DNA from: a virus
Virus record (IMG/VR): IMGVR_UViG_3300034112_000940
Coordinates: 1 to 35,004 of that record
Reading direction: 5' to 3' (one strand)
Length of the DNA stretch: 35,004 bases
The position numbers were made by a program, and so were the translations under genes. The notes under the pieces were generated by a model, which ran no database searches, was not told the DNA's origin, and was given only the letters and a program-made list of their open reading frames with translations. Positions 1,408-25,953 of the stretch are shown here, piece by piece; the first letter of the stretch is position 1; every line of letters starts with the position of its first letter.

Positions 1408-1428
1408 TAAAACCCTTAATATATATAA

Positions 1429-1448: not shown

Positions 1449-1460
1449 AATGTTATAGCA

Positions 1461-1488: not shown

Positions 1489-1496
1489 TAGATACT

Positions 1497-2111: not shown

Positions 2112-2123
2112 TTTTTACCTAAC

Positions 2124-2345: not shown

Positions 2346-2371
2346 TTTACTTCCTCCTTGTTTGTCATATT

Positions 2372-2380
2372 ATTATACCA
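2372..2380 (-). promoter_or_regulatory. Extended -10 promoter candidate TGGTATAAT
   Basis: TGGTATAAT follows directly on the TAA stop of the upstream gene. The same 14 bases on the plus strand (TATTATACCATTAC) recur at 12591-12604, in the same relation to a stop codon. No good -35 is visible at 16-18 bases, as can be the case for extended -10 promoters. It would feed the three small genes from 1497 to 2345. Confidence 0.4.
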
Positions 2381-2843: not shown

Positions 2844-2902
2844 AATATCTCCTTAACACAATGAATCATATCATTTATTGCAATAGATGTCTAGTAAAAA
2901 AT

Positions 2903-3484
2903 TTATTTGCCAAAGGATATTACCGAGTGCTTCACTCCGCTTACTACTGGCAAAACCCTGTGTATATAATCTGAGCTGGAAGGGAATATTATCAGGCTAT
3001 TCTTTTGAGGCTTTATCGGTATGCTGTATGCTTTATCTTTAAACTGAATTTCCCCTCCCTCATAATCATCATTTATATAGTAAACAAACGATATAGTAGA
3101 CGGGTGGCTTTTTCCATCGTCACTGTGCCATGTGAGCTTTTGAGACTGCTCATACTTTAATATCTCCCACGGCTCCCTTTCTTTTATCTTTATTCCAGTT
3201 GATCTTACAAAATGCAATATACACTTAGATAATGCTAGATCTATTTTTTTATTAAGAACTCTTTTTGCATTATTGTAATCGGATTTGTCTTGCAAGTTTG
3301 TGTATAATGAAAAAACAGTGCACGAACGCAAGGAGGGGTCATAGTCATGATTATTTATTGTTGCGGACTTATAGTCTTGATTATAATCAGAAAATATACT
3401 ATTTAGCTCAGTAAGAATTTGCAAATCATTTTCTATTGCATTCTTATACATAAATATTTTATTTCCCAGGTCTTCTACCTTCAA
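2903..3484 (-). CDS. 2-oxoglutarate/Fe(II)-dependent oxygenase (prolyl-4-hydroxylase-like)
   Basis: A 193-residue protein with the double-stranded beta-helix oxygenase signature. The iron ligands are His120 and Asp122 (WHSDD) and His175 (YIHRVLPV). Lys185 (GVKHSV) sits where the 2-oxoglutarate-binding Arg/Lys is expected. The core strand YEGGEIQF, typical of the prolyl-4-hydroxylase/PKHD group, lies between them. Such enzymes hydroxylate protein side chains or small molecules, coupled to decarboxylation of 2-oxoglutarate. The start is TTG, preceded by GGGGG. It lies 14 bases after the giant fibre gene, so the fibre is a natural candidate substrate, but that link is an inference from position. 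Confidence 0.85.
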   Translation of the reverse strand: MKVEDLGNKIFMYKNAIENDLQILTELNSIFSDYNQDYKSATINNHDYDPSLRSCTVFSLYTNLQDKSDYNNAKRVLNKKIDLALSKCILHFVRSTGIKIKEREPWEILKYEQSQKLTWHSDDGKSHPSTISFVYYINDDYEGGEIQFKDKAYSIPIKPQKNSLIIFPSSSDYIHRVLPVVSGVKHSVISFGK

Positions 3485-6400: not shown

Positions 6401-7647
6401 ACCAAAACGGTATACAGTCTGTTTTCCGTTAATCCAAAAGGGCTGGCAGAAGTACTTGTTGTTGAGGCTAATGGATAGCCAGGCAAAGAGTTACCTGTAA
6501 TAGAATCAATTAGATCAACCTTGTATCTTTCTGCATCTGGTGAATACCAAGAAATGTCTGCGGAGCTTTTTGTTCTATTTGATATTGTTATTTCTGGGTT
6601 TTCTATTTCCCTAGGAGGGGTAAATACATATGAAGCAACTTGTTGGGTTTCATTAAAATCTAGCAGGTGCTGCTCCAAAGAAAGGCTGGGATTATAATAG
6701 TAATCTTTTGCAACTGCATAAACATTAATTATATAGTCTTCACCAGAATCAATCATTGCTTGTGTATACTGTACAAAACTAGAGTACTGGTGATTTGGAA
6801 GTACGTCTTCGCTTTTCAGATCTCCTATCCTTGTACCATAAAAATCAGTAAACTCAACTATTTGCTTTCCAATAAACTCATCAGTCCGAGATGAAGAAAA
6901 ATATTGTCCATTTGGATATGATGATGCAGATGATGTTAGGTACTGCCATTTAAATCCAAATATTTTAAATTCAGGCATGCTAAGTGTTTCATCTTCAATT
7001 ATTTGATCTCCAGTGCTGTATGTGTGAAATCCAAATGTTAGTTTTGGGAATATTCCGTTTGCACTTGGATACCATGTAGTTGCCTCTAAGTAATCCGACT
7101 CTTCTGGATTTTTATCTTCTGCAGCTTGAATCTTTGCTCTAAACCCAACTTTATTTTTAATGTCTTCTAAATTAATTACTGGGCGCAATGCAGTATTCGT
7201 TGGAACCTGATCTAGGTAGTCAGAGTCTTTATATTCTAGATACTCTAATTCTTGAGTTATTAAATCTGTTTGATCTGCCCACCCGCCAAGGGCAGCCTTT
7301 TGAATTTTTATTAAAAAGGATTTAGGGTCTTCGTACCACTTTCCTCTTCTGACATACATCTTGTCTTGCTGAGTGCACTGATACTCTGACTCTATCGATG
7401 ATGGAGATATAAATACAAGACCCACGTCTGATTTTGGATATGGGAACGCTGCTCCAAATATTCTTCTCCAGATGCCGCTTCCTTCGTATCTCCATATGCT
7501 TTTAAGTTTTACCCAGCCACGATCAGCCACGTTGACTTCTCCACCGAAGTCATTTATTCTTCTAAAAATATTTTTTATTTTTACCCAGCCATTAGTGGCT
7601 ACAGAAACCTCACCGCCTGAGTCGTTAATTCTTCTCCAGATTGTCAT
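3499..7647 (-). CDS. Giant minor tail/fibre protein: FN3, thrombospondin-like repeats, TIN repeat, C-terminal Hint domain
   Basis: A 1382-residue protein made of clear blocks. Residues 1-65 hold two copies of a roughly 25-residue unit (WRRINDxGGEV...GWVKxKxI). A beta-rich body follows, with a fibronectin III-like domain near 345-440. Residues about 583-1126 are nine cysteine-rich repeats of about 60 residues, each starting KTY(S/G)xW and resembling thrombospondin type 1 (WSxYGxC, then RxRxWTA, then paired cysteines). Residues 1127-1219 are 31 Thr-Ile-Asn/Asp tripeptides. After GGGG, a Hint domain begins at Cys1225 (GTKIQMADG, GDEVMA) and contains TYEH and a final AHN. The protein probably forms a receptor-binding or decorative tail-tip fibre whose C-terminus is removed by self-cleavage. 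It lies between the FN3 tip gene and the oxygenase gene. The domain assignments are pattern-based; the structure of the thrombospondin-like part is the least certain. Confidence 0.85.
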   Translation of the reverse strand: MTIWRRINDSGGEVSVATNGWVKIKNIFRRINDFGGEVNVADRGWVKLKSIWRYEGSGIWRRIFGAAFPYPKSDVGLVFISPSSIESEYQCTQQDKMYVRRGKWYEDPKSFLIKIQKAALGGWADQTDLITQELEYLEYKDSDYLDQVPTNTALRPVINLEDIKNKVGFRAKIQAAEDKNPEESDYLEATTWYPSANGIFPKLTFGFHTYSTGDQIIEDETLSMPEFKIFGFKWQYLTSSASSYPNGQYFSSSRTDEFIGKQIVEFTDFYGTRIGDLKSEDVLPNHQYSSFVQYTQAMIDSGEDYIINVYAVAKDYYYNPSLSLEQHLLDFNETQQVASYVFTPPREIENPEITISNRTKSSADISWYSPDAERYKVDLIDSITGNSLPGYPLASTTSTSASPFGLTENRLYTVLVTALAGEGDKYKSDEVSKSFRTISTGVEAILGEPYDITENSYKVYIANYSSLSGFTITANVSLGSASISADVISVSGITSSGDSCLTVTTEKIDNVNLTAVSYEQATSDTLCTEIGSIWYCLTYGNTQPVVCSGPTIELSDKSGGASGYSITCSKTEICCQKVVLEPKVYTEWVIGLCTVFPADPKRPRTRQWTQQQKTTSQNCVVTTVELSGSETEYIDCCIATSTLGEKTYGTPGPWGTCTPNVGITRLVPWTATRTNYSRDCITTTTQESGNEQQFKDCCVASTVDGDKTYSAWSEYGECYGADPRRTRSRTWTALRITTNTSCVETTTEISGTEQQDTSCCTPSTTYGPKTYGTPGPWGTCNLNTGQIGRLIPWTATATTINSSCVTTVGPGSGNDVDYKDCCTSSVTTGPKTYSDWSAYGSCIQGERTRYRTWTAIETSNTINCTSSTKEVNGTEFGYAPCCTAGCTLGTKTYGDWSAYGSCSNGERRRQRSWTAINTCIDSSCNIISQNELNSVEYEYTSCCTQVCTTGEKTYGAWGAYGSCNLFTSQICRTRPWTAQQSCFTTSCTNEVTTISGNDIECIDCCTASVTTGPKTYSAWSAYGNCSQGERTRSRTWTAIETSNTVNCTSSTKEVSGTEFEYAPCCTAGCTTGDRSYSAWGSWGSCSQGEQARIRTWTAIETCINSSCNVLSTREVSSFEIEYRNCTTINTINTINTINTINTINTINTINTINTINTINTINTINTINTINTINTINTINTINTIDTIDTINTINTIDTINTINTIDTIDTIDTIDTIDTGGGGCHVVGTKIQMADGTFKNIEDLYIGDEVMAADVPGVGDNEADISNLSLWSSEDISGTTKTVANVTNVIIRSYGQYYLINDTIKITYEHIIPARQNGVWKFIEVKDLNVGDTVMNENLDNVTVTSKILVDEIVETVSINIENKDIYFVEGLMAHNFSEKT
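3517..3975 (-). other. Hint (hedgehog/intein-type) self-processing domain
   Basis: Residues 1225-1377 of the fibre protein. Block A is Cys1225 followed by VVGTKIQMADG, the nucleophile of the N-to-S acyl shift. Block B is TYEH (TxxH). The final block is AHN, where Asn1377 could cyclise. The residue after Asn is Phe, not Cys, Ser or Thr, and only five residues follow, so protein splicing is unlikely. N-terminal cleavage after GGGG is the expected reaction, as in Hint and bacterial intein-like domains. Confidence 0.85.
3991..4269 (-). repeat. 31 tandem 9-bp units encoding (Thr-Ile-Asn/Asp)n
   Basis: Exactly 279 bases made of 31 in-frame 9-base units, often paired into an 18-base unit by alternating Thr codons (ACA/ACT). 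The Asn version dominates at the N-terminal side, and the Asp version clusters next to the GGGG-Hint junction. The array keeps the reading frame and probably grows and shrinks by slippage. It may form a thin beta-solenoid-like or extended stalk; the fold is not known to me. Confidence 0.95.
4273..5901 (-). repeat. Nine thrombospondin-like coding repeats
   Basis: Nine units of roughly 180 bases encode the cysteine-rich modules of the fibre protein (residues about 583-1126). Units 5 and 8 are the most alike: about 190 bases near 4448-4636 and near 4990-5176 are nearly identical, which points to a recent internal duplication. Units 2 and 4 form another related pair (KTYGTPGPWGTC). Confidence 0.85.
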
Positions 7648-7659
7648 ATTTCTACACCA

Positions 7660-10600
7660 TTAAATTCTTGAAAGCCATATATCTCCAGGATTAAAGCTTA
7701 CAGATGTACCGCCAACGTCTCTAGTTAAAGCACCGTTAGGAAGGTTTCCTCCTCCATAATGAAATGCTCTACCAGTAGTCAAGTATCCATCTTTATCCTG
7801 CACAACAGTTGTGTCTCCGCCATACCCATCATTATTTGATGTTACGCTTAATCTGATTTTAAAGGCAGCATAAGGTTTTTGATCTGGATTTATTGAAAAA
7901 ATTCCATTTTCGTAAACAACTGATCTGTTTCCTAAACTAAAGCTTCCAGCACCTTTTGTTACCCCGCCTGGTCCTGTTGCTGGTATAGTTGTAGATTTTC
8001 CTAGTAAATAATCATTTGAAAAACTTTCACCTGCTCCTAAAAATATATTTGATGCAACTAAATCTGTTTGAATATTAAATGTTCCATTAGGGTTTTCTTG
8101 GGTAGGAGTTGAATAGGTTATTTTTCCGCCAGCTAATCTAAATGCACCAGATGAAGATATGTAATCAATATTTCCTGGGTTGCCGCTTCCCGATCCTGGA
8201 TATACTGTATTCCATTCAGCAGGTGTTGTAAAGTAATGATTTGACCCAACAATGTTTCCGCCAATAATAGAGCCTTGTTCTCCATTAAGTGTTACTTGAG
8301 ATAATGTATTTGTAGACTTAATATTTGCAGAATCGATTGTCCAGCCGCTTGTAATCTTATATCCTGTAGTATTACCTGCAGCAATATCTGCGGCTGTTGT
8401 AGGAACAGCTGTTCCGAAACCTCCTTGACCTGCAAATAGTGCTCCTTTAATAACTGCATCTACTGCAGTCATTTTACCTGAGTAGGTAACAGAGAAATTA
8501 GGAGAGACCGTTCTAGATCCTCCAGCCCAAATCATTACTGTTGAATCTGATGATGTATTTGGAGCATATAGTCCAACATTTCCACCATAGTTAATGGATG
8601 AGCCAGATGCATCCTTTGACAATGTCCATCCAGCTATTAATCCTTTTACTGCTTTAATTCCATTCACTGTATCCAAAGAAACAAATTGTCCGTCTGCTGT
8701 GCTTGTTACCTGAATACCAGTTCCAATTTTAGCACCGAGTTGATCTTTTAAAACTCCAAACTCTATCTTTCCTTGGTCTGTGTTCAAAAGTATTTGGCCG
8801 TCGCCGAAGTTAGTAGGAGATGTGTCACCAGTTCTTGTAGCCGATCCACCTATTTGAATAGAACCTATCACTCCATTGTCTACATATATGCTTCCTCGTA
8901 TATTAGCATCATTGGCTTTTAGTAATCCAGTAGTTGCTGCAACTTCAAACCCTGAGCCAACTTTTATCTTACCGCCAGTAATATCAATATTGTTTGCTTT
9001 AACATATCCATTAGGCTTAACGTAAAATTCTGCTGCATCAGATCCGCCTGCTGAAGGTGAGCCTGCCCAAAATGAATAGGTGCTTCCTGGAGACATTCCC
9101 GCATATCTCATAGATAAAACAGCAGGGGTTCCTACAGAAACCGTGTTTCCCTTTTCTATCTTGTCTAAAGAAATTTCCCATCCGCCAATGCGTCCTTTAT
9201 TTGTTATAATTCCATTTAATGTATCGAGCTGAAACAGCTGTCCACTTGCATCTGTCCCCTGAATTCCATACTCATTTATAAATGCACCAGATGAATTTTT
9301 TAATTGTCCTACTTCAAATTTATTGGCACCAGAATAAACTCTTAGTTGGCCAGGAACTGTAGCACTTCCAATATCAACTGATCCAGTAAAGTTTCCAGCA
9401 TTTGCATTTACAGTTCCAGTTACTGATAAATCCATTCCGTCCCAAACCATTTTGTCTGTTGTTCCACCGACTGTAAAGTAAGCAGCACTCGACTCATTAG
9501 TATTTCCTTGCACATACCAATAATTATTTGGCGCTACGTAAAGTCCTTTTTGAGAATTATCTCCGTCAATTCCATATCCAAGCTTCATGTCTCCAGCGGT
9601 TATTGCTACATCTGGAAGCAAGGAGTTGCTGACTGGAGATACTACAGGATCATAAGTTCTCCATGCGGTTTCATTTGTGTTTCCGTAAATATCAAATGTG
9701 CTAACAGCAATCTCATATGTCTTTCCGCCTTTTAGACCATAAAGATAAGAGGAAGTTTTGGTTCTTCCTGGTACAGACATGTATGTGTAAGGACCTGTTG
9801 ATCCCTGTATCCTAAATCTAATTCTATATCCAGCAGTGTCTGGATCTGTATTTTCTGTCCATGTAAATAAAACTTTTTTATCAAAAGAAAATAAGCCGTT
9901 AGAGTCATCGGATACTGTAGCTGATTGCAATTCAAAATCATTCTCTGGAGGGTTGTCATCAAATGCAATTGAATCTATTGGCTTTACTGTTTTCTCTAAA
10001 GAAAAATTAGAGTAGCAGCCAAATTTTCCAACGTATCTTATTTTTACTATCTTATCTGCAAAAGGGCTTGTGTCAAGCTCGGTGCCTTTTATTGCTGGGC
10101 TTGGGCCAGAATAAACTAAAGTTGATTGCTGGCTACCAGCATCTCTCGCATAAACTTCTGTTGCTACCGCCCACGATGGTGCTGTCCATATAACAGTGTA
10201 ACCAGCACTTATGCCAAATGCGTCATCAATGGTGGGAGTTAATCCAGTTCCTTGGCATCCAATTGTGGGAGTTGTGAATGATACTCCAGCAGTAAAGTTT
10301 CCAGCAATATCTCTAGACTGAAAAAGCCCAGTGTATGAGGGTGTTAAATTTAAATAACCAAAATTTAGAAGAAAATCAGAATATGGTATTTTTAAACTAT
10401 GAGTTCCAGAAGCAGATGGAGGCTCGCCATAAAATATTGCTGATGTTGGAGGAGTTAAAGTATTTGTTAAAGTAATCTTAAATCTATCTGGAGGGTTTGT
10501 TAAAGGCATTGTGTATGGTATAACAAGGTCCTCTCCAGACCAGGTTACATTTCCTAGAACTACTTCGTTTGGAGGCTCTTTATCAAATGTTTGAGGATCA

Positions 10601-11391
10601 AATATCTTTGCTGTTTTTACAGAAGAGTCCAGACCCTGGCAATCGGAATATGATAAGTGATTAACTTTAACATAAACATCATTTATTGTATCTAGGCCTA
10701 TATCGGCAGGGCCAATTCCAGTATACCTTTGAACCCAATTGTAAGGGTTATTGGTTAAAGATACAAAAACTCTTGTCTCTCTATACGTTAAAGCTTTTGA
10801 TAGATCATCTTGCCAAGATACCATTATTCCATCTATAGTACTTGCCACTTTCCATTTATCGTCTGGTATAGAGTTTGCACATATTGGATCAACATACGGT
10901 GCTAGCGTTACTGGGCATTGGTCTGAGCTTCCATCACCATACACACTTTGAATAGTAAAAGATGTAAATTCTGTTCTAAATTTATTTCCAAACTGAAAAA
11001 TATTATTTTCTTTAGTAAGAACCCATGAATAATTTAATGATGAGCCAGATGCTGGAATAAGTTGAGATCTTGTATATCCACCAGCAGTTAGCGACACTAC
11101 ATAATTTCTTACACGGTCATCATTTTTTGTCCATGTTAAATTTAATCCAGCCGTTGCATCCCATGTGGCGACTACGTTTATTGGGCAAACCCTTGAGGGT
11201 GCAGGTGTAGTAAAATTAAATCTGTCTGAAAATTCGCTTGTTCCCAAAGACTTATCGCTATATATCCAAGCAGCCTGCAATGCATAATCAGTATTACAAT
11301 CTAGATCTGGGATTACAACATCCCAGTAGTCTCCATCTTGACTCTGAGTTATTCCTAGATCTGGATATTGTTCTGACACATTAAACCCCAA
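7660..11391 (-). CDS. Fibronectin III-rich tail tip / minor tail protein
   Basis: A protein of about 1243 residues. The first half (about 1-590) is a chain of about six fibronectin III-like modules (for example LNLTWTKNDDRVRNYVV and TWTENTDPDTAGYRIRF). The second half is made of glycine-rich strand repeats of the kind seen at the end of tail-tip J-like proteins: FEVGQLKNSSGAFINEYGIQ and FGVLKDQLGAKIGTGIQ are two copies of one unit, each followed by a LDTxNGI...GGW or AGW motif. It would lie outside the particle at the tail tip and take part in host contact. The annotated start is TTG at 11391, overlapping the upstream gene by 11 bases. GTG at 11379, preceded by GGGG, is an equally good start. 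The first fibronectin module seems to lack its early strands. Confidence 0.8.
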   Translation of the reverse strand: MGFNVSEQYPDLGITQSQDGDYWDVVIPDLDCNTDYALQAAWIYSDKSLGTSEFSDRFNFTTPAPSRVCPINVVATWDATAGLNLTWTKNDDRVRNYVVSLTAGGYTRSQLIPASGSSLNYSWVLTKENNIFQFGNKFRTEFTSFTIQSVYGDGSSDQCPVTLAPYVDPICANSIPDDKWKVASTIDGIMVSWQDDLSKALTYRETRVFVSLTNNPYNWVQRYTGIGPADIGLDTINDVYVKVNHLSYSDCQGLDSSVKTAKIFDPQTFDKEPPNEVVLGNVTWSGEDLVIPYTMPLTNPPDRFKITLTNTLTPPTSAIFYGEPPSASGTHSLKIPYSDFLLNFGYLNLTPSYTGLFQSRDIAGNFTAGVSFTTPTIGCQGTGLTPTIDDAFGISAGYTVIWTAPSWAVATEVYARDAGSQQSTLVYSGPSPAIKGTELDTSPFADKIVKIRYVGKFGCYSNFSLEKTVKPIDSIAFDDNPPENDFELQSATVSDDSNGLFSFDKKVLFTWTENTDPDTAGYRIRFRIQGSTGPYTYMSVPGRTKTSSYLYGLKGGKTYEIAVSTFDIYGNTNETAWRTYDPVVSPVSNSLLPDVAITAGDMKLGYGIDGDNSQKGLYVAPNNYWYVQGNTNESSAAYFTVGGTTDKMVWDGMDLSVTGTVNANAGNFTGSVDIGSATVPGQLRVYSGANKFEVGQLKNSSGAFINEYGIQGTDASGQLFQLDTLNGIITNKGRIGGWEISLDKIEKGNTVSVGTPAVLSMRYAGMSPGSTYSFWAGSPSAGGSDAAEFYVKPNGYVKANNIDITGGKIKVGSGFEVAATTGLLKANDANIRGSIYVDNGVIGSIQIGGSATRTGDTSPTNFGDGQILLNTDQGKIEFGVLKDQLGAKIGTGIQVTSTADGQFVSLDTVNGIKAVKGLIAGWTLSKDASGSSINYGGNVGLYAPNTSSDSTVMIWAGGSRTVSPNFSVTYSGKMTAVDAVIKGALFAGQGGFGTAVPTTAADIAAGNTTGYKITSGWTIDSANIKSTNTLSQVTLNGEQGSIIGGNIVGSNHYFTTPAEWNTVYPGSGSGNPGNIDYISSSGAFRLAGGKITYSTPTQENPNGTFNIQTDLVASNIFLGAGESFSNDYLLGKSTTIPATGPGGVTKGAGSFSLGNRSVVYENGIFSINPDQKPYAAFKIRLSVTSNNDGYGGDTTVVQDKDGYLTTGRAFHYGGGNLPNGALTRDVGGTSVSFNPGDIWLSRI

Positions 11392-12241
11392 ACGAAAGGT
11401 CTAGTTTAAATTCTATTGATGCTTCTCTTCCAATTACTTTAATCATTGTTGAGTCTAGTATAGATCTGGCAATGAGACCGTATTCTGGATCAAAGGTGTC
11501 CTCGTCATTTATTCTAAGACCATCCATAGATACAGATGTTTGAGCAGTTGTTGGAGTAACAATAATTCCTAACTTAACAACACTTTGTGGATTAAATGTT
11601 CCTGTTGATACCCCAGTAGACATGTTTAAATTCTTTATATTGTTTCCAACTGAGTGTCCAGTAAATGTAAATTCTAAGTAATCGGTATTTGAGCTATAGA
11701 GCCTTACCTTCAATGAGGACAGGTTTGCATCATTTGCTTTGTATGAAAATGATAATGTATCTAATGGGTTGTACCCAGATATATCCATACTATCAAGTAT
11801 GTAAGTGTACTCTTTTGGGGCCGCCCCATTTGATGTAAATGTTAACGAACTATCTCCAACTCTAAAGTTTGTTTGATCTAGCTCTGGCTCTGGACTCCAC
11901 TGGTATGGCAATTCAAAGTTAGATATAAATTTGCTTTCATATAAATTTCTTGAATAAGACTGGCCAGAGTAGATTCCAATTTCATTAATCTTACCTGCAA
12001 TGTTTGTAGGAAGTGTAGCTGAATAGATTACTGTATATTTTATTGGTGATACAGAAGAGTCTATATCGATCCCTCCGACCCTAATTGGAACACGATAGAA
12101 CTCAAAACCAAGTCTTGAGTTTGTATCTGACAAAGCATATTCAGTTCCTGTTGCAATTCCAATAGCCATTTCTTTTGAAGAAAATGATGAGTTACCAGCT
12201 ACAAAATTAGTAAGAAATCTTTTACCAAATTTAGTTATCAT
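11381..12241 (-). CDS. Minor tail protein with carbohydrate-binding-like region
   Basis: A 286-residue protein. The N-terminal part (MITKFGKRFLTNFVAG, then AIGIATGTEYALSD and LGFEFYRVPI) resembles baseplate or tail-tip proteins that arrange adhesins. The central part (about 125-235) is a beta sandwich-like stretch (LSFSYKANDANLSSLKVRLY, YLEFTFTG) similar in pattern to carbohydrate-binding modules. The C-terminus ends SIEFKLDLSFGV. The ATG overlaps the upstream stop (ATGA) and is preceded by a good GGGAGG site. Placed between the hub-proximal small protein and the fibronectin protein, it probably connects the tail tip to adhesins. The sugar-binding idea is inference. Confidence 0.65.
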   Translation of the reverse strand: MITKFGKRFLTNFVAGNSSFSSKEMAIGIATGTEYALSDTNSRLGFEFYRVPIRVGGIDIDSSVSPIKYTVIYSATLPTNIAGKINEIGIYSGQSYSRNLYESKFISNFELPYQWSPEPELDQTNFRVGDSSLTFTSNGAAPKEYTYILDSMDISGYNPLDTLSFSYKANDANLSSLKVRLYSSNTDYLEFTFTGHSVGNNIKNLNMSTGVSTGTFNPQSVVKLGIIVTPTTAQTSVSMDGLRINDEDTFDPEYGLIARSILDSTMIKVIGREASIEFKLDLSFGV

Positions 12242-15911: not shown

Positions 15912-16498
15912 ACCTGCTCCAAAGATATGTCAACACTCCAAAATGTTTGTAGTCCTCTTTTAATAACTGAAAAACTGCAAGATGTAAACATTACTGTGTA
16001 AGTATAGTCATCTGATAAGGCTCCATCAGATTGCTCAATTAAATCTGTACTAAAAACTGTTGGGTTTAATTTAATTCTAAAAGGTAGTCTACCAGCAGAA
16101 CTTTCATAAAAGTTTTTTAAATCTTCTGCGCCCCAGGCACCGTCAACTGTTTCATTTCTAAAAGAAGGTAGCATTTCCCATGAAATATTTATGGTAAGTT
16201 TATCAGCAACAAAATATTTTCTGAGTGTGCCATTTGACATTCTAGACGATTGCTCAATTCTGTTTGTATCTATTGAGATTGGCTGTCTATTATGCTCAGT
16301 AACTCTTCTAAATCTTAATTGATTTTTAGAGCTGTAGGACAAGTTGTTTCTAGTTGCTACAGATGATGTATATGAATTACCTGGTGCAACAACAGACGCT
16401 CCTTTGTAATCAAATGAGTTGTTTGCTGTATCAATTGCAAATGGGTCTAGTGCCTCTATGTATAAAATTGAGCCTTTACTTAAATTTTGAAAACTCAT
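15908..16498 (-). CDS. Distal tail (Dit)-like protein
   Basis: A 196-residue beta-rich protein directly after the tape measure gene, with which it overlaps by one base (TAATG). Its position fits the distal tail protein that caps the tube and starts the tip. Notable segments are KLTINISWEMLP, GAWGAEDLKNFYESSAGRLPFRIKL and the end CSFSVIKRGLQTFWSVDISLEQV. The last has the alternating strand pattern of a tube or distal tail core. The ORF ends inside the start of the hub gene by 4 bases. The Dit assignment is from gene order; no strong motif supports it. Confidence 0.6.
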   Translation of the reverse strand: MSFQNLSKGSILYIEALDPFAIDTANNSFDYKGASVVAPGNSYTSSVATRNNLSYSSKNQLRFRRVTEHNRQPISIDTNRIEQSSRMSNGTLRKYFVADKLTINISWEMLPSFRNETVDGAWGAEDLKNFYESSAGRLPFRIKLNPTVFSTDLIEQSDGALSDDYTYTVMFTSCSFSVIKRGLQTFWSVDISLEQV

Positions 16499-19400
16499 TA
16501 TGACCCAACCTTTCTATTTACTCCAGCTGCCATTTCTTTTAATCTCATCTCATTACGTATTTCTAGTGCAACATCTTTTGCTGTCACGTTTGTTCCATTT
16601 AATTCTACATTTATATTATATACTGATCCTGTTGCTGCCGCCGTAGCATTTGGATTAAATGGATTCATGTTAGCTGGGATAACTGCTTCATCTTTATGAA
16701 GCATCGCAAGCATATTTGCAGGAACCATATTAATTCCATTTTCAAACATCGGTACGCCAAGGTTTGAAAGAGATTTAGTAACAAAACCACCGTTGGCAAG
16801 GATTAGTCCGCTAGGTGGATCAATTGTTTGAGAAGATGTAGACTTTGGAATACCACCGAAAGGAACTTTTCCTAGTGAGGTTTTTAAACCAAATCCTGGG
16901 GAACCAACTTTCCAATTTGTAACTATGTCTCCAGTTTTATAACCAGTGTATCCTCTGCTAGATAAGAATTTTACAAAATCTTCATTGTGTAAATACATTG
17001 AGCTTCCACTAATTTTTGATCCTGTTGCTTTATTAAATGCCGCTGCCTCTAATGCCAATCCAGCATCGTCAATCGGTCCTTTACCTAAAGCTGTTTTAAT
17101 CCAAGCAAATGGTGACAAGCTTAGTTTATGTGCCACTTCTCCAAATTGTGCGCCCTCAAATATCCCCTTAGTGGATCCATAAGTGCCAAGACCAAAGTTT
17201 GCCATTGCTGGGCTTTTTCTTCCTATTGATGGCTGTAATGAATCTATAGGAGAATGAGCAAAATGTGTAAACGCTTTTGCTTCTTTAATATTTGCTAACA
17301 TTTTAGCAATTTTTGCTACTCCACCAGGACCAAATGGAACACCTAATTGCGTTGGCTGTGGCCCCCCAACATACTTTACTCCAAATAGAATTCTATTTAA
17401 GAATGATTGTTTTGGGTCTGGCTTTGCATGATACCCAAACGAAGATACTGGACCACCGTTTGCAAACATGAGTGGCCCTAGTCCATAGGCTCCATTACCG
17501 ATACCGCCCATAGAGGCTCCAGAGCCTGCAAGGCGCATAGGGTCTTTGTCTAGACCCATTCCTGGGCTTGTAAATGGCTTGCGTGGCTGCTCAAGCATCT
17601 GATGCATGTAGTCTGAATGCTGTGGAACCTTTCCAGTAAACTTAAGTCCTGGTATTTCTGTTCCGCCCCAAATATCCATGCCTGGACTACGTGGTCCAAT
17701 AAATCTTGAAAGCTCTCCCCAGTATTGTCCAAAAGGATTTCCTATCGGTCTTCCAGATCTTGAATATGGAACACCTGGTTTCTTTTGTCTTGGTGATGTA
17801 AGAATTGGACCGCCATCTGCTCTTCTAAGTGCTTTGTGCCAACCATCTACAACATCTGCACCACCAGCGGCGTCTACAGCCTTTGCACTAAATACATACT
17901 CTCCATCTGAAAGCATTGCTGGAATAGAATCCGATGTTGCCGTTCCTGGACCAGTAACTTTTCCTCCTGGATTAAAGTGTTTTATATATCCGCCATCTGC
18001 TTTTTGCAAAACTGCTGGCAATAAGTCATCTGCGCCAGCTCCCTGCCCCCTATATGTCTTTCCTTTATATGTAAAGAACTGATCTGCTCCTAATTTATTG
18101 TCCTTCATTAAAGCTCTTCTACCTTGAGAATTTAAGCTTCCGTCTTCTTGCAAATACTTATCATACTTGCTACCTTTAACTTCTAATGCTTGAGCCTTTG
18201 ATCCGTATTTAATATCACCCTTATACTTACCTAGTGCTTCCACAAGGTCGTCACGTAATTTTCTCAAAGTAACATTTCCAGTTATAGCAACTGCTAGCTT
18301 GCTTACAGCTGCAATATCTTTATTAAACTGGGAAAGAGAATCATTGTTTACTGTTGTATTTGTTGAAAGAATAGGTCTTCCCTGTGCATCAAATCCAGTT
18401 GGAGATCCAGTAGTTACTGTTTCAGGAACTTTTGGCTTTCCGTCTGAATTAAAATATCCTGGGAATGCATTTCTTATTGTTTGTGCAAGCAGGCCTGGTC
18501 CAGTACCAGCCTTTTGCATTTCTTTTAGGAAACTAATAAGCTGTTTCTTAATATCTGCTTCTTCTTCAACTCTATCTTTACCTGAAAGAAGCTGTGCGTT
18601 AACAGCTCTTGTACTAAGCTCGTTATACGTTAGCTGGAATTTTTCAAGAGATTCTTTTATATCAGCTGCTACTGCAGAGTTATCTTGATTATTTTGAAAA
18701 ACAGTATTCTTTTTATCTTGTGCGTCTTGTATTGCTTGTGCATCTTTTTCTAAAGGTGCCTTTGCTTTATTTGCTGCATCCTCTATTGCTTTTTGAGCAA
18801 GGTCGGCTTGTCTATTAAGTGTGAGTTGATCTATATCCAACTTGGCTTGATTTGCTGCAGCCATGTCTCCACGAGAGACAGCATCTGCATATTCTATCTG
18901 AAGCTTTTGTAATTGCAATGCATAATTTGATGCATCTTGAGTTGCTCTTAAGGCCTCCAGCTTTTTATTTTTTTCTTCATCTATAAGCTTAATTTTTTTA
19001 GCAATTGCTTTTAATTCTTCCTGTGCACTTCTTTGAGAAGCTGCATTTGCTCTTTGAGCTGCTGCAGAAGTTGCAGCAATTGTTTTTTGAAGTTTAGATA
19101 AAGCAGATCCAACAGTCGCGTATGTGGTAGCAGAATCAGCAGCTTGTGTTAGCTGGGAGATTCCTGTTCCGATTGCTGAAGTAAATCCAGCAAGTTTTGA
19201 TGCTAGAGTAGAATCTATTTTGCTTAGATCAATATTTATTCCAGCAGTAAAAAGTTTCCACTTTGCAAGTATTCCCTTTATAGTGTCTGATTCATTAATG
19301 ATTCCCGCTAGCAAAGGTTGTGTTTTTTGAAGATTTAAGTATACGTCTCTACCTATTTCTTTATTCATGCCTGGGTTATTTGTTTCTGCTTTAGACATAA

Positions 19401-22400
19401 CCATTTCATAAGCTTTAAACTCATCTATAACATTTCCAAGCTCATCTTTTGTTCCAACTAAAGATTTTGTTGCTTCAGAAAATACACCTATTAGTCCTTC
19501 AAAACCGTTTCCTACCTCTTTATACCAATCAGCAGTTCCTGTTCCTTTGCTTAAGGTGTTTACCAAATTTCCAACAGAAAATTCTGCCGCTGTAGCTTTA
19601 TCTGTTATTGCTCCAAATTCTGTATTTGCAAGCAGTTTGTATGCTTGAGAGGCTTTATTGCTATTTGCTAAAGCACCGTATATTTTTTTATTTGCTTCTT
19701 CAACGCTCATTCCAGCAGCAACCATTTGTGCTTTTTGATTATTAATTAATCTTTGTGTTTCTGCTGTTGTTTCTGATCTATTTAAGGATTCAATTACATC
19801 TTTTAATTGTTTTCCTTCTTCTTTTGCCTTCTTTAGTTCCTCTATTGATTGAGGTAGTCCAGGCATACCAATTGAGTTTCCTTCTGCACCCTTGGCTGCT
19901 GCGGTTGCTAATTTTTGTTTATCTATGTAGCCTTGCATGGTTTCTTTAAGATTAAAATACTTTATTCCAGCCTGCTCCGCAGCTTTAGCTGTCATAGAAA
20001 GTCCTATAGAAGCATCTTGCTGAGCATCTTTATAATCCTTATAAATTTTAAATGCTGCAGTTGCAACCGTTATTGCTGCTCCTATTAAACCAAAGCCCTT
20101 AGCAAATCTTGCAAGCATAGCTCCAAATTTTGCTAGCCCGCTCATTGACAATGAAAATCCTTTTAGCGCAGTTCCAGCAGACTTTATGCCAGTACCAACT
20201 TTACCCCATGGAAGCATTGGAAGTATTGAAGTAGCAGCCATAACACCCATGCCAACATTCATACCTGACATTTCTTTTCCTAGGATGTTAACCTTTTCTT
20301 TGCTCATCAATGCCATTCCGCCCATTGATCCAGCCATTCCAATTCCCATTTGAGAACCCATACTCATACCATTGTATCTTCTTGGGATATTTATTCCTTC
20401 AGCTTTAGCTTGCTTTGCGGTCATTACGTTTCCGTCTACAAGGTACTCTGTTCTTCTCATTCCTAGAGTTCCTACTTTTCTAGACTGAATATTATCGCCC
20501 AAATCCTTGTAATTTCCAACAAAACCTGGGCCAAAGAATCCTTGTGCTGGTGCTTGTCCAACAGGATATCTAGCTGCTGCAAATGCATTTTGCTCTCTTA
20601 TGATTGCGTTTTGTGCTCTTCTGGCAAAATTTAATGTTGATGTGGCAGCTGATCTTACAGAACTGCTCATGGTTGTAGCAGTATTCTTTATAGACTGAGT
20701 AATAACTCTTGCATTTATATCTATAGCTTTTGCTAGCTGCATAGAGTCTACCTTAATTGAATTTCCCATAGATCTAAAAGCTGCTGATAAATATTGAGTT
20801 TTCATTGCTGCTGAATTTCTAAATGGGTCGATCATATTGTTAACCATTACTTGTCCAGGGTTGTAGAAGCTTGTTGTTCCAGATCTAACTGCTTCTCTTC
20901 CTAATCCTGTTGTTAAAGCCTGTTGACCAGTAATTTGACGAGATGAAGCCCTAGATCTTTCTGCTGCTAAATCTCTTTCTCTTTGTGCACGTTGTTCCGC
21001 TTCCCAATTAGCTCTTGCAGCAGGGTTTCCTGGTCTACGTGAACCATCTTTTCGACCATAGGCACGTCTTCCTGGCTTAATTGGGCCGCCACCAACTGGA
21101 CCTCCAGCATTAAGATATTTTGGATTAGCATGCACGGCATGATATTGACTCCAATCAACCTCTATACCATCATCCAATCTTTTAAGCATTGCTTGATAAG
21201 GAGGTCTAAGATCTACAGGTAAATCATTTATTATTTTTAATAATTTTGGACGAGCATCTTCTAATATTTTCTTCATTCGTCGACCATATTTTTTCGGACT
21301 CATCTTAGAAATTATTGGTGCAGTGTCACGTGCGAAATCTTTTCTTGCTCCACCTTTAACGGCAAGTAGATTAATCATTGCTTGCTTTTCCATAGAGTTC
21401 ATTTCATCAGCTGTTGCAAGACGTGTATTGCCAGATGCTTTAGGTAATACTCCAGCTTGCCCAACATCTGGATTAAAATTACCATACACGTTTGCTCTAG
21501 ATAAATCTTTGTTGTTTAAAAGAAGAGAATTAGCAAGCTGTCTGAGCACTGTATCTTCATCCCATGGCACATTAGTGTTTGCAAAGCGTGGGTCGTAATC
21601 TGATTCTAAAGCAAGTAGCTTGGTTCTTTTTGTTGGATCTACTGGATTTGCAACTGTCCTAGCTGTTTGTACTGGAGAATGTATTCCAAAAAGATCTCTT
21701 GCAATTTGAGTGCCAATTGGCTCATGGACGGCAGTTAATTCATTAGGAACACCTTTAACAAAAACTTTTTTGTTACCGACCTTATACAATCCAGATACAC
21801 CAGGTACAGGATAACTCATCCCTGTGCTTGCAGAAATTTGATGCCCATACTCAGTTACTGGCATATCGGCAAACTTGCCTAGCGAGCTTCTTGAGCTTAA
21901 TTCTCTTGCCTTTGCTAAAATCTTTAATTGTTTATCTGGTGCAAGCAATCTTAATGCAGGAGCAATATTTCCATAATTTGATCTGCCCCTAGATATGTAT
22001 CCACCTGGAATCATTCCGCCAAGATTGTATCCACCCATAACAAGCCTAGGAGGTCTTGTTGGTAGCCATCTTTGTCTTTTTGCAGCTGCTTCTAAAAACA
22101 TCCGTAAAGAATTTTTTTGCTCTTTAGTTGCCCTAACAACTCTTCCTGATTCATATTCAGATTTGGTTTTAAACTTTCCATCATCTTGAACTGCGGCATA
22201 TAGATCATCTACTGTTGCAAACTTATCCATTCCTGTGCGCTTTAAGGCTAGCTCGAAGTTTTCTCTTGCATCTGCTGCATTTAAATTTAGAACATCTCTA
22301 GAGAGACCAATTCCTTCAAGTCTGCTCATTATGTTATTTATTCCAGGAGGTAGTACTGCAGCTAATCCCATATAGCCACTAGTCATATATCCAAGATCTT

Positions 22401-25400
22401 TACGTCTTCTAAAATGTGCTCTTTCATGCAATCCTTGAATAATTGGCATACCATCTTTATTTTTAAATGTTGTTGGTGAAACCGCTTCTATTAAATCCTT
22501 TACTCCAACAAAATTTGGAAAACGATTTTTATCCATCATAGCATCTCTAACATCATTTAGCTTATAATTTAAAGCGTTGCTCTTGCTTTCTTGAGCTGTT
22601 TTAGCATTCTTAACACGTAACTTTGGATACTTCTTTTCTAAATTTTGTACCTGTTTAATTCTTATCTTAACGAACTCTTCATCAGATCCACCAGACATCA
22701 TCTTTGCTTTATCAAAGTTAGATGTTGCTTTCTTAATAGCTTCATCTACTGGCATTCCTGCAGTTCCAGCCAGCTCTGCTGCATCCAGCATAATCATTCT
22801 AATTCTTAGATCATCTTCATATCTTGGATTATTTATAAATCTTAAATATTCTTTGTATTGTTTTTTAAATAGTCTTTCGTCCATCTTGCTAGATGGTGTC
22901 TTATCTGTCTTCTTCCCATAGCCAGGAATACCGTTCATAATCTGCCCACCAAAATTGTATCCGCTATTTGCTGCATCAACTGCTGCATAAAGCTCAGGCA
23001 TTCTTTGAATTTGAGGACCAAAAACTACTTCCCGTGGAGTAAGAGCTGCTGTAATATTTCCACCGTCATTTAAATATGTGCTTGGAGCCATTGCAACTAA
23101 TGGGGCATTTGCTGGATCCATTGCAGCTTGCTGGTTCAAAACATATCCGCCTAGTGGAACACTTCCCAATCTATCATCATAGTCTACTGAAGATGGTCCT
23201 GAAACCACTGTTTTGTTTGGACCAAATGATTCAATGTCTCCACCTATATTAAATTTAGGCATTCTTGTTGTTTGAATACTGTAAGGTGCGCCAAATGTTC
23301 TTACACCACGGACTCTTCCAAACTCTTCCATGACGGCAGCATTTGTCTTTTTCTTATACAAATCTCTAAGTGTAAACTGTCCATTAGCATCAACAACTGG
23401 TTGATCCATCATTGGAGCTCTTGTTAAATCAATTGTTCTTCCTCGTCCAGCAGCATACATACTTACTGCTGATCCCATGTCTGCTTCTATTTGTGCATTA
23501 AGTGCAAGTATTCTTGCTTTTGCTTGATCAACAGTAATTTCTGCATTTCTCATTTGTTGAACAATTAATGCAGATTGAGTTGCTGCGCTATCTGCAAATC
23601 TTTGAGTTATTGGAAGAATATCATCGAATGTATCTAGCAGTTCTCTGCTTACCGTTCCACCCATTGCAATTGTTTTCTTTAGATTTGCAACTTCTTGCTC
23701 TGTTTGCATTCCTAGAGTTGCCATCAACGCATGGAATTTTGCAGCCTCTGGCGCAACAATTCCTGTTGATATTCCCTTTACACTTGTTAGCCCTTCAACA
23801 TTCGGAAGTCTATCGTGCATATAAATTTGAGGGGTTCTAGATATTCCTCTATTTACTGGTATAGCTCCTGGCACACCACCAAACAAGGTGGCTGGGTTAT
23901 TAGGATCTCTTGGTCTAATGTGAGACATTGCTCTAGTATTAAGATCTCCAACATATGGATCGTTAGGGTCAACTACTCTTCTTCCATGAGCAGGAGCAAC
24001 AATTGCATTTCCAGCAACTGTAGACACTCCTGCGTTTACTGGAACTGCGCTCTTCATTGATGCTGCTTGAAGGTTTTGATAATCTAAAACAAGTTTTTGT
24101 AATGCATTATGAAGAACTTGAGCTGCAGCGGCATCTGAATAAAATGCATTCTCAACCATTTCTGCTGCTTTTTGAGCAGCAATAATTTCTGGAGTAAGCA
24201 TCTTCCATCCATTTGCTCTCATAAAGAAAGATCTAAGCTGGACTATTCCCTTTGTTATATAACCAAAGAAGTTAGCAAGTACACCAGTTAACATAATTAG
24301 TGGACCAACTAATGCTGTAAATCCTGCCATAAATGTGAGAGCTTTTTTAATTGGTGTTGGCAACTCAGTAAAGAAGTTTAGAATTTTTGATGCTGCATTT
24401 ATAAGCTTTGTTGCTACTCCAAGAAACTCTTCTCCAACGCTTGCAAGCTCTGCTTTAAGGCTTTCCATTGCCTTTCTATATTTACCAGATGCAGACTCTG
24501 TAATCATTCCTAATTCTCGCTCTGCAATTCCCGCCAAATCTGAAGTACTTGCTTTCATTAAATCCATAACCTGAAGCGTCTGGCTTCCTTCTTTTCCAAG
24601 GTTGTTTAGGAGTGCGCTCATTCTTGCAAACTGGAATTTACCAAACATTTGTTCTAGTGCTCTAGCTTTGCTTAAAGGATCTAGTTTGTTAAGAGCTGTT
24701 TGTAAATCTGTAAGCATTCCAGTTGTGTTTCCAGTATTTTTTGCAACCATACCCAGAACATCTATGCCGAAATCAGACATCATGCCAACTGTTTGCTTTG
24801 TTGGATTAATAAGAGAAGCCAAACCTGACTTTAATGCGTTTGCACCTTCAGATGCGTTAATTCCACCCTCTCTCATTGCAGTCATGTAAAGAGCTAAATC
24901 TTCAATGCTGCCTCCGAGCTGCTGTATAACTGGACCAGCTTTTGGAATTGCTTCCACTAAGTCATTAAGTGTTGTAGAAGTCTGGTTTTCAACTGCGTTA
25001 AGAAAGTTAATTGATTCTGTAAGCTGTTGTGTATTTTGCTTAAAAGCTGTTTGAATTGAAAGAGTAGCCTTCATGGCATCTTGTCTATCTACTTCTCCAA
25101 GGATTGCAAGTCTGGTTGTTTCTTCTATGGAACCTAAAAGGTCGTTGCCCATCTTTCCAGTTGCCGCAATATCTGCACCTAGGGCAATCGTATCTTTAAA
25201 AGAAGCTCCCATTGTTTGAGATAAAGATTTTGCTGTCTGTACAACTTCTTCTCTAATTGCTTTTAAGTCGGTTGCAGAAGTTGCAGCTAGCCCACCATAA
25301 ACTTTTGTAAGTCTTACAAGCTCTTGGTCTGCTTCTCTAAAAGCTTTTCCTGCTGCAGCACCGAACATTGTTAATGGAACTGTAAGTCCAACTGTAAGCT

Positions 25401-25953
25401 GACGACCTGCCCACTGGGTATTTTTACCCCAGTTAATTAAAGATCCTGCTCCTTCAGATAGTGCACGATTCATTATCTGAAGTTCCATGCGAGCTAGCTG
25501 TGCGCTATTTTTTACGGCATCCAAACCTCTTGGAATCATAACGTTGTACTGCATTAGACCTTGAGCATTTCTACCTAAAGGTTGTAGAACTGAGTTTTGA
25601 AGCATTACCTGCTCTTTGGCAAGCTCCCTTATCATTCCCTTTTGAGTTGTAGCATGCTCTCTAAATGTCTGGAAATAGTTCTTAAGCTTTAATCTTCCAG
25701 AGTCTAGGTTTTTACCAAACTTATCTACATCAGAATTAAGGTTTACAAAGTGACTAGAAAACTGTCCGCTTCCAGTTAGTGTATCTCTAAATAAGTTATT
25801 TGCTAATTTTGTTGAAGCAGATATTGCTCTATTCGATGAAAGAAGTTCTCTTTGTAATTGTTGGAGACTAGAACTAGCCCTGTGTACTTCAGACACAAGG
25901 CTAGACAAGTCGGCTTTGGCGACTATACTGGTTACAATTTGTTCGTCAGCCAC
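16498..25953 (-). CDS. Giant tape measure protein with embedded enzyme-like domains
   Basis: A 3151-residue protein, longer than most tape measure proteins. Residues about 120-560 match the TP901-type tape measure core (AFREADQELVRLTKVYGG, IAATGKMGNDLL) ending in a hydrophobic stretch (ALTFMAGFTALVGPLIML). The C-terminal two thirds hold at least ten short Gly-Gly linkers (NIGGDI, NFGGQI, NLGGMIPGGY, NAGGPV, ADGGYI, NPGGKV, ADGGPI, ANGGPV, ANGGFV). Between them lie an HERAH motif (1176-1180), a HipA/kinase-like region (about 1365-1605), hydrophobic helices near 1850-2000, a coiled coil (about 2290-2420) and an ADP-ribosyltransferase-like region (about 2890-3030). It sets tail length and may carry cargo into the host. 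The start is GTG with AGGAG at 6 bases, overlapping the chaperone stop by one base (TAGTG). Confidence 0.9.
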   Translation of the reverse strand: MADEQIVTSIVAKADLSSLVSEVHRASSSLQQLQRELLSSNRAISASTKLANNLFRDTLTGSGQFSSHFVNLNSDVDKFGKNLDSGRLKLKNYFQTFREHATTQKGMIRELAKEQVMLQNSVLQPLGRNAQGLMQYNVMIPRGLDAVKNSAQLARMELQIMNRALSEGAGSLINWGKNTQWAGRQLTVGLTVPLTMFGAAAGKAFREADQELVRLTKVYGGLAATSATDLKAIREEVVQTAKSLSQTMGASFKDTIALGADIAATGKMGNDLLGSIEETTRLAILGEVDRQDAMKATLSIQTAFKQNTQQLTESINFLNAVENQTSTTLNDLVEAIPKAGPVIQQLGGSIEDLALYMTAMREGGINASEGANALKSGLASLINPTKQTVGMMSDFGIDVLGMVAKNTGNTTGMLTDLQTALNKLDPLSKARALEQMFGKFQFARMSALLNNLGKEGSQTLQVMDLMKASTSDLAGIAERELGMITESASGKYRKAMESLKAELASVGEEFLGVATKLINAASKILNFFTELPTPIKKALTFMAGFTALVGPLIMLTGVLANFFGYITKGIVQLRSFFMRANGWKMLTPEIIAAQKAAEMVENAFYSDAAAAQVLHNALQKLVLDYQNLQAASMKSAVPVNAGVSTVAGNAIVAPAHGRRVVDPNDPYVGDLNTRAMSHIRPRDPNNPATLFGGVPGAIPVNRGISRTPQIYMHDRLPNVEGLTSVKGISTGIVAPEAAKFHALMATLGMQTEQEVANLKKTIAMGGTVSRELLDTFDDILPITQRFADSAATQSALIVQQMRNAEITVDQAKARILALNAQIEADMGSAVSMYAAGRGRTIDLTRAPMMDQPVVDANGQFTLRDLYKKKTNAAVMEEFGRVRGVRTFGAPYSIQTTRMPKFNIGGDIESFGPNKTVVSGPSSVDYDDRLGSVPLGGYVLNQQAAMDPANAPLVAMAPSTYLNDGGNITAALTPREVVFGPQIQRMPELYAAVDAANSGYNFGGQIMNGIPGYGKKTDKTPSSKMDERLFKKQYKEYLRFINNPRYEDDLRIRMIMLDAAELAGTAGMPVDEAIKKATSNFDKAKMMSGGSDEEFVKIRIKQVQNLEKKYPKLRVKNAKTAQESKSNALNYKLNDVRDAMMDKNRFPNFVGVKDLIEAVSPTTFKNKDGMPIIQGLHERAHFRRRKDLGYMTSGYMGLAAVLPPGINNIMSRLEGIGLSRDVLNLNAADARENFELALKRTGMDKFATVDDLYAAVQDDGKFKTKSEYESGRVVRATKEQKNSLRMFLEAAAKRQRWLPTRPPRLVMGGYNLGGMIPGGYISRGRSNYGNIAPALRLLAPDKQLKILAKARELSSRSSLGKFADMPVTEYGHQISASTGMSYPVPGVSGLYKVGNKKVFVKGVPNELTAVHEPIGTQIARDLFGIHSPVQTARTVANPVDPTKRTKLLALESDYDPRFANTNVPWDEDTVLRQLANSLLLNNKDLSRANVYGNFNPDVGQAGVLPKASGNTRLATADEMNSMEKQAMINLLAVKGGARKDFARDTAPIISKMSPKKYGRRMKKILEDARPKLLKIINDLPVDLRPPYQAMLKRLDDGIEVDWSQYHAVHANPKYLNAGGPVGGGPIKPGRRAYGRKDGSRRPGNPAARANWEAEQRAQRERDLAAERSRASSRQITGQQALTTGLGREAVRSGTTSFYNPGQVMVNNMIDPFRNSAAMKTQYLSAAFRSMGNSIKVDSMQLAKAIDINARVITQSIKNTATTMSSSVRSAATSTLNFARRAQNAIIREQNAFAAARYPVGQAPAQGFFGPGFVGNYKDLGDNIQSRKVGTLGMRRTEYLVDGNVMTAKQAKAEGINIPRRYNGMSMGSQMGIGMAGSMGGMALMSKEKVNILGKEMSGMNVGMGVMAATSILPMLPWGKVGTGIKSAGTALKGFSLSMSGLAKFGAMLARFAKGFGLIGAAITVATAAFKIYKDYKDAQQDASIGLSMTAKAAEQAGIKYFNLKETMQGYIDKQKLATAAAKGAEGNSIGMPGLPQSIEELKKAKEEGKQLKDVIESLNRSETTAETQRLINNQKAQMVAAGMSVEEANKKIYGALANSNKASQAYKLLANTEFGAITDKATAAEFSVGNLVNTLSKGTGTADWYKEVGNGFEGLIGVFSEATKSLVGTKDELGNVIDEFKAYEMVMSKAETNNPGMNKEIGRDVYLNLQKTQPLLAGIINESDTIKGILAKWKLFTAGINIDLSKIDSTLASKLAGFTSAIGTGISQLTQAADSATTYATVGSALSKLQKTIAATSAAAQRANAASQRSAQEELKAIAKKIKLIDEEKNKKLEALRATQDASNYALQLQKLQIEYADAVSRGDMAAANQAKLDIDQLTLNRQADLAQKAIEDAANKAKAPLEKDAQAIQDAQDKKNTVFQNNQDNSAVAADIKESLEKFQLTYNELSTRAVNAQLLSGKDRVEEEADIKKQLISFLKEMQKAGTGPGLLAQTIRNAFPGYFNSDGKPKVPETVTTGSPTGFDAQGRPILSTNTTVNNDSLSQFNKDIAAVSKLAVAITGNVTLRKLRDDLVEALGKYKGDIKYGSKAQALEVKGSKYDKYLQEDGSLNSQGRRALMKDNKLGADQFFTYKGKTYRGQGAGADDLLPAVLQKADGGYIKHFNPGGKVTGPGTATSDSIPAMLSDGEYVFSAKAVDAAGGADVVDGWHKALRRADGGPILTSPRQKKPGVPYSRSGRPIGNPFGQYWGELSRFIGPRSPGMDIWGGTEIPGLKFTGKVPQHSDYMHQMLEQPRKPFTSPGMGLDKDPMRLAGSGASMGGIGNGAYGLGPLMFANGGPVSSFGYHAKPDPKQSFLNRILFGVKYVGGPQPTQLGVPFGPGGVAKIAKMLANIKEAKAFTHFAHSPIDSLQPSIGRKSPAMANFGLGTYGSTKGIFEGAQFGEVAHKLSLSPFAWIKTALGKGPIDDAGLALEAAAFNKATGSKISGSSMYLHNEDFVKFLSSRGYTGYKTGDIVTNWKVGSPGFGLKTSLGKVPFGGIPKSTSSQTIDPPSGLILANGGFVTKSLSNLGVPMFENGINMVPANMLAMLHKDEAVIPANMNPFNPNATAAATGSVYNINVELNGTNVTAKDVALEIRNEMRLKEMAAGVNRKVGS

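Follow-up and report, generated by a model that had tools for sequence, protein, structure and literature searches.

The polyvalent proteins of phages and conjugative elements, which unite kinases, GNATs, zincin-like peptidases and wall hydrolases in one polypeptide, are predicted to be carried into the host along with the DNA and have been suggested to recombine like cassettes (Iyer et al. 2017, PMC5512222; what we say of this source and of those below refers to the accessible part of each text). The gene analysed here, the tape measure protein (TMP) gene of a 35,004-base linear virus record (IMG/VR IMGVR_UViG_3300034112_000940, taken whole and called the window), belongs to a TMP family that resembles them as a long polypeptide with disparate enzyme domains. 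Indeed, at the family level, at least two disparate domains are found in one polypeptide, namely a block with a predicted kinase fold (D2) and CHAP or LysM domains; in the window itself, D2 is the one block with an assigned fold. Unlike the window TMP, the polyvalent carriers are portal, MuF, N4-type RNA polymerase and conjugation proteins, the term 'tape measure' being absent from the accessible text, and the polyvalent kinase group is described there without a C-terminal subdomain, whereas the C-terminal part of the D2 model is helical (PMC5512222).

Other TMPs share further features with this one. The giant TMP of P23-45 (5002 amino acids, aa) also has an enzyme active early in infection, a fused virion RNA polymerase, but it carries one N-terminal enzyme with no swapping reported in the accessible text, whereas the window family has several kinds of block, both internal and C-terminal (PMC10770324). 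In the T5 TMP pb2, a mapped cut after R1127 frees the C-terminal muralytic domain, and docking in the tip, once open, involves the residues that precede the cut; the enzyme is separated from the tape near a Gly-Gly (GG), as proposed for the window, but it is a wall hydrolase only and pb2 has no match to the hook profile described below (PMC10038345). For JBD30 gp46, the authors predict that, once the C-terminal part is extruded and cut off at R1066, a hook at aa 1022-1066 keeps the tape anchored by its new C-terminus; this hook is homologous to aa 2660-2713 of the window TMP but, unlike there, only 92 residues follow it, in which the accessible text records no enzyme found by the authors (PMC11445458). 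Sle1 and Tme, from contractile injection systems of Actinobacteria, are likewise TMP-derived and have an exchangeable C-terminal functional domain, but they belong to bacterial injection systems and carry one such domain, whereas the window has a phage TMP that is still a tape and domain arrays (PMC13277306). The combination of several swappable enzymes on a phage TMP appears to be new, its parts being known singly (TMP enzymes, polyvalent injected proteins, TMP-derived exchangeable effectors): TMPs with kinase or GNAT cargo arrays were not found in the open-access literature searched, which is no proof of their absence.

The 3151-aa open reading frame (ORF) is a siphophage TMP, matched by 13 PHROG tape-measure families (best phrog_10030, aa 155-669, E 7.9e-117), and the finding concerns its aa 899-3151 (features in Table 1). 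Relatives were gathered with a 700-aa query from this region, which gave 37 viral loci, and with a D2 alignment, which gave 113 confirmed stretches and 80 loci kept. From these, 83 TMP ORFs including the window's were extracted, 62 of them complete (incomplete ones were dropped before the break test), and 43 of 2775-4573 aa remained as non-redundant once those at least 95% identical had been removed. Because the genes flanking the TMP are conserved in all 32 loci checked, the TMPs compared are orthologous genes.

Using this set, we found that whole blocks are replaced between conserved flanks. Between the window and the relative L021 (such handles denote relatives' loci), DNA identity is 94% before the block D1 (aa 671-1002) and 95% after it (D2), and is 44% inside D1 (27% at the aa level), the change starting just after GGQIM.G..GYG and ending just before N.GGMIPGG. 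Since the two D1 alleles are distantly homologous (hhalign probability 97.9%), this swap is the allele replacement of an old module. D1 is missing in five distant TMPs (L112, L113, L117, L119 and L120), in which a hook-like unit stands directly before D2. At the other end, the first set of relatives was collinear from aa 1 to ~2697 and differed wholesale in the C-terminal end. L005 and the window are 98% identical in DNA over aa 2663-2696 and 90% over aa 3067-3151, and the cargo between differs; L012 has in common with the window 48 residues at the start of the block D3 (52% identity), followed by a GNAT-like module instead. The first-pass annotation had proposed to ask whether linker-bounded DNA varies independently across homologous TMPs, and it does: D1 changes between flanks that stay conserved, relatives acquire, lose and trade C-terminal cargo at GG joints, and a continuous co-evolving domain without module gain or loss at linkers was not found among the relatives.

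The same annotation had listed ten xxGG motifs as linkers between globular stretches. All ten are present, offset by at most 5 residues, the GG dipeptides lying at aa 904, 964, 1002, 1307/1312/1317, 1617/1621, 2654, 2663, 2714, 2833 and 3055. Further GGs of the region, at aa 935, 1088, 1534, 1878, 2697, 2763, 2816, 2863, 2877 and 3033, were not in that list; GG1534 is no linker, since it forms part of the kinase-like domain, where the motif is invariant. From aa 881 on, the 24 GGs are not enriched over the 23.2 expected by composition (P 0.47), and GG followed by a hydrophobic residue or Pro is mildly overrepresented (17 vs 10.3 expected, P 0.02). As GG counts are not above composition, the linker argument had to be tested on the relatives. 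Across 213 distinct GG contexts between the hook and the C-terminus, taken from the 35 of 43 non-redundant relatives in which the hook was found by pattern, the joints display the consensus [KR]-[FYM]-[AH]-x-GG-x-V, with enrichment of R (3.8-fold) and K (2.5-fold) at -4, F (6.1-fold) at -3, A (4.0-fold) and H (5.2-fold) at -2 and V (7.3-fold) at +3; a basic residue occurs at -5 to -3 in 52% of contexts vs 31% expected.

In addition, we located sharp identity breaks in every pairwise comparison of the 43 TMPs, with a null from 2000 shifts. Among all 1104 breaks, 24.1% lie at most 8 aa from a GG (null 16.2%), and among the 254 breaks common to at least 8 partners this proportion reaches 42.1% (null 16.3%, maximum of the 2000 shifts 24.0%). 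In the AlphaFold model of aa 1003-1640 (m53ee15ff37fb, 45 sequences), the confidence measure pLDDT is below 50 at aa 1003-1023, 1298-1330 and 1615-1640, which are the GG joints, and two confident domains lie between them, so that the layout of domains and linkers is a predicted one. At the family level, the motif stands above chance through its flanking consensus, its coincidence with homology breaks and the low AlphaFold confidence at the joints. The separation of globular stretches by GG motifs is overstated as a general rule, given that not all GGs are joints and not all breaks fall at a GG. Note that the tape stretches aa 1721-2000 and 2561-2652 are highly variable among relatives and have borders without GG.

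D2 was recognised first from invariant residues and then by fold. K1400, E1411, D1483, N1488 and D1496 are invariant across all 43 TMPs and in all 45 rows of a further alignment; from the motif spacing, we take K1400 to be the catalytic Lys, E1411 the helix-C Glu, D1483 and N1488 the catalytic-loop Asp and Asn, and D1496 the metal-binding Asp. The model of D2 matches the CotH kinase 5jd9 (Z 11.5 over 208 residues, root-mean-square deviation 3.8), CtkA (Z 10.7) and PI4KIIalpha (Z 9.7), as well as HipA/HipT kinases (Z near 8-9). We therefore predict that D2 has a kinase fold of the PI4K/HipA/CotH group, with putative phosphotransfer activity. Among viral predicted structures, the best Foldseek matches were a 1201-aa protein annotated as portal (E 2.2e-4) and a 955-aa uncharacterised phage protein, the matched part of the model not being specified. 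Searches with D2 gave no match at E<=0.01 in 50,697 phage records (six matches touch D1 only), and in bacterial genomes one pattern-limited scan gave 44 pattern matches, none of them confirmed. Second kinase-like modules were noticed in L083, L098 and L101 from motifs and one Pfam ABC1 match (E 0.15). For D1 and D3, nothing useful on identity came from Pfam, NCBIfam, PHROGs, PADLOC or PDB sequence searches; one weak match of D1, judged uncertain, is to a Vibrio phage protein annotated as pyruvate phosphate dikinase and encoded near a large terminase gene (L126, 3104-5197; E 6e-3 over ~100 aa, six near-identical records).

The C-terminal region behaves as a cargo bay. In the 35 TMPs with a hook found by pattern, 80-118 aa follow it to the end in 15 and 365-1781 aa in 20, and the inserted stretches are different, unrelated proteins (CHAP, LysM, HExxH, GNAT-like). 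CHAP scored above the Pfam cut-off in 6 and LysM in 3 of the 18 relatives scanned, and the Cys/His pattern of CHAP is kept in 8 of 11 spans; HExxH was found in 8 and GNAT-like modules in 9 of the 43 TMPs, the best Pfam score of the latter (E 0.0022) being below the cut-off. The description of the TMP as a string of effector-like domains is hence supported by the enzyme domains in the cargo of relatives and is overstated for the window, where only D2 has a predicted enzyme fold and aa 1641-2650 contain no recognised cargo. Within the bay of the window, block B (PYGRYWGEL...DPWGGTEIP...HQLAEQP...GSGASMGGIG) turns up in many long TMPs, being 92% identical in L027, whose other parts are far less so, and no known domain was recognised in it. 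The window's own cargo, D3, has relatives found only as 99-100% identical copies. Its resemblance to an ADP-ribosyltransferase was noted by eye, supported by no search and with a poor model (mean pLDDT 46.9), and was set aside, as was the 'ART-like' label given by eye only to modules of L016, L083 and L100; in the C-terminal alignment used for structure prediction, the L012 row was misplaced. The TMP of L101, of at least 4677 aa, carries two tandem copies of a ~60-aa cargo segment (HLKKKIFESFPKKPYPTRNPGG...) as well as another kinase-like motif.

The hook unit, which precedes this bay, is homologous to aa 1019-1067 of the JBD30 TMP (independent E-value 5.6e-15 in a one-sequence search; phmmer against PDB 8rk3, E 0.0012). 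Within it, TSDSIPAMLSDGEYV occupies aa 2673-2687; this pattern was said to be common in other tape measures, and the surrounding 61 aa match 910 of 50,697 phage records at E<=0.1. Some phages that can be grown on laboratory hosts (Gordonia, Tsukamurella, JBD30) also have the hook, and the cleavage idea is therefore testable; a hook and an enzyme are found together in the cultured Gordonia phages Twonlo and Orchid, Tsukamurella phage TIN2 and Streptomyces phage Blueeyedbeauty. Four of the five isolate TMPs checked have a wall-hydrolase domain, each C-terminal of the hook match, and muralytic domains seen in isolate TMPs include transglycosylase, SLT and M23; in the isolate Blueeyedbeauty, the hook match is weak or partial. 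The T5 cut after R1127 reads VPR-AEGGM, 3 residues before a GG, in a TMP with only 5 GGs and in which positions 1-5 residues before a GG make up 1.9%. By analogy, we infer that cleavage may occur at the hook joint (aa 2660-2713). The pre-D1 joint region weakly resembles degenerate hook units (E 0.0074 and probability 5% when compared with the hook by hhalign). The idea that all joints are copies of the hook was not retained, since it was weakly supported (hhalign E-values of 0.0074 and 0.026, with probabilities of 5% and 2%).

Table 1. Features of the TMP gene in the window (positions in bases of the window; residues in aa of the TMP)
Feature	Residues	Position	Strand	Basis
TMP gene	1-3151	16498..25953	-	ORF, GTG start, 3151 aa; Pfam and PHROG matches
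PhageMin_Tail tape core	239-438	24640..25239	-	Pfam E 5e-27
Pre-D1 joint region (GG904, 935, 964, 1002)	900-1016	22906..23256	-	break common to 16 partners at aa 1006
Block D1, mostly helical predicted domain	1024-1297	22063..22884	-	pLDDT mostly 60-96; swapped as block in relatives
Joint GG1307, GG1312, GG1317 (NLGGMIPGG)	1298-1330	21964..22062	-	pLDDT <50; break common to 8 partners at aa 1308
Block D2, predicted kinase-fold domain	1331-1614	21112..21963	-	model m53ee15ff37fb; fold matches; invariant residues
Joint GG1617, GG1621	1615-1640	21034..21111	-	pLDDT <50
Hook unit (FNPGGKVTGPGTATSDSIPAMLSDGEYV...LRRAD)	2660-2713	17815..17976	-	JBD30 TMP homology; breaks common to 26 (aa 2661) and 24 partners (aa 2687)
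Putative cleavage/joint site LRR-ADGGP	2710-2716	17806..17826	-	analogy to T5 VPR-AEGGM
Block B, recurrent module	2716-2832	17458..17808	-	87-92% identical in L006, L008, L021, L027; absent from short TMPs
Joint at GG2833 (MFANGGPV)		17446..17469	-	break common to 10 partners at aa 2835
Block D3, window's own C-terminal cargo	2885-3034	16852..17301	-	model, mean pLDDT 46.9 (poor)
Joint at GG3055 (LANGGFVT)		16780..16806	-	similarity to long TMPs picks up again at aa 3047-3067
Conserved C-terminal tail of long TMPs (LHKDEAVIPANMNPF...)	3067-3151	16501..16755	-	90% aa, 90% DNA to L005

Around the TMP gene, the portal, head protease, capsid and tail genes are found in the usual order; downstream of it, 12609-15911 matches a minor tail protein family (PHROG) and 11381-12241 a tail protein family. 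The nearest isolates are Streptomyces phages, with a capsid protein ~58% identical (best among the matches listed) and 31-34% identity at the TMP N-terminus (among the matches listed), and the host is probably a freshwater actinobacterium. Downstream of the tail genes, two large proteins of 1243 and 1382 aa are encoded at 7660-11391 and 3499-7647 (minus strand), with no PHROG match at E<=0.001, and a metallo-phosphoesterase family protein (phrog_221, E 2.8e-51) lies near the tail genes at 607-1407 (minus strand).

Taken as a whole, these results make it probable that the TMP is both the tail ruler and a modular, polyvalent polypeptide for delivery to the host at infection. Its layout would run from the N-terminal tape core to D1 and the kinase-fold D2, then through more tape to the hook at ~aa 2660-2713, the C-terminal cargo bay and a short conserved tail, with blocks joined by flexible segments of the consensus given above, at which the phages of this group may recombine. 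Recombination at the GG joints would give each phage lineage its own enzyme set. During assembly, the conserved C-terminus would sit in the tail tip, with the chain threaded through the tube; at infection, the tip would open and the C-terminal cargo would exit first (CHAP or LysM wall hydrolases where present, other enzymes elsewhere), the chain would then be held or cut at the hook, and the remainder, including D1 and the kinase-like D2, might reach the envelope or cytoplasm and refold. From TMP biology, we infer that it would be injected into the host with the DNA.

Besides the GG count given above, several points weigh against delivery by a jointed TMP. Concerning the joints, 76% of all 1104 breaks and 58% of those common to at least 8 partners lie more than 8 aa from any GG, strong breaks of the window at aa 1722 (10 partners) and 3111 (8 partners) are far from GG, and the breaks, drawn from 43 related queries, are non-independent. 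Concerning cleavage, the hook profile has no match near the T5 cut (a local alignment scored no higher than shuffled sequences, P 0.58), the window TMP yielded no protease motif, and the JBD30 cut site is itself predicted, the next GG being 18 residues further. As for the enzymes, the best Foldseek match of D2 in PDB has E 2.7e-3 with none below 0.001, the GNAT and zincin assignments are below the Pfam cut-offs, and D3 has no Pfam, NCBIfam or PHROG match.

A narrower explanation, compatible with the delivery of cargo and in our view unlikely on its own terms, is that the joints are mainly recombination hotspots, with conserved DNA at GG units and a motif that is structural only (hook or docking) and serves neither cleavage nor unfolding. 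Such hotspots would fit the very high DNA identity of the joint in L005 (98%, aa 2663-2696) and the occurrence of the hook in short TMPs without cargo (15 of 35) and in the 910 phage records; however, the aa consensus, with its basic residue at -4, is kept at joints of quite different DNA, and the mapped T5 cut falls at just such a place of a basic residue and a GG. Less likely again are variable blocks that are virion-structural or serve entry only (tape lengthening, tip assembly, wall digestion) and include no effectors acting inside the host. CHAP and LysM act on the wall, muralytic TMP domains are known from T5 and the isolates, and block B, without a recognisable enzyme, is in many long TMPs, but a wall role is not evident for a kinase-fold block with an invariant catalytic set, nor for the GNAT-like and HExxH modules. 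That the C-terminal region is merely fast-evolving and repetitive, its modules being artefacts of alignment or metagenome assembly, is very improbable: coiled coils and split ORFs can produce false TMP mosaicism, as the accessible text of PMC10684548 warns, and the variable stretches aa 1721-2000 and 2561-2652 are not GG-bounded, but the replaced blocks come from different families (CHAP, LysM, GNAT-like), D1 is exchanged between flanks 94-95% identical in DNA, the TMP ORFs are continuous, and each of several architectures is seen in more than one metagenome record (L006/L008/L010, L013/L014/L018, L016/L017/L020 and L029/L030/L031).

Returning to the TMP as a delivery polypeptide, a bolder version of this reading is possible, and we put it forward only tentatively. 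The TMPs of these uncultured relatives of actinophages might form a polymorphic effector platform comparable to polymorphic toxins, in which a conserved tape and hook would carry exchangeable enzymes, cut or released at the [KR]-[FYM]-[AH]-x-GG joints. Delivery would follow a fixed sequence, beginning with the wall hydrolase and continuing with the kinase and other enzymes of host takeover, and the kinase, common to all, would act on a host target as the phage enters.

The exchange of D1 and of C-terminal cargo between nearly identical DNA flanks is to be set against the survey of phage protein mosaicism, in whose accessible text no genuine recent TMP case was confirmed (PMC10684548). Our findings also bear on the packing of enzymes beside DNA in siphophage tails and on whether a TMP delivers anything besides a pore. 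Should the cargo be delivered, the joints would mark where a TMP can be cut into testable domains, and TMPs would join portal/MuF proteins and virion RNA polymerases as a third kind of carrier of enzymes for early host takeover.

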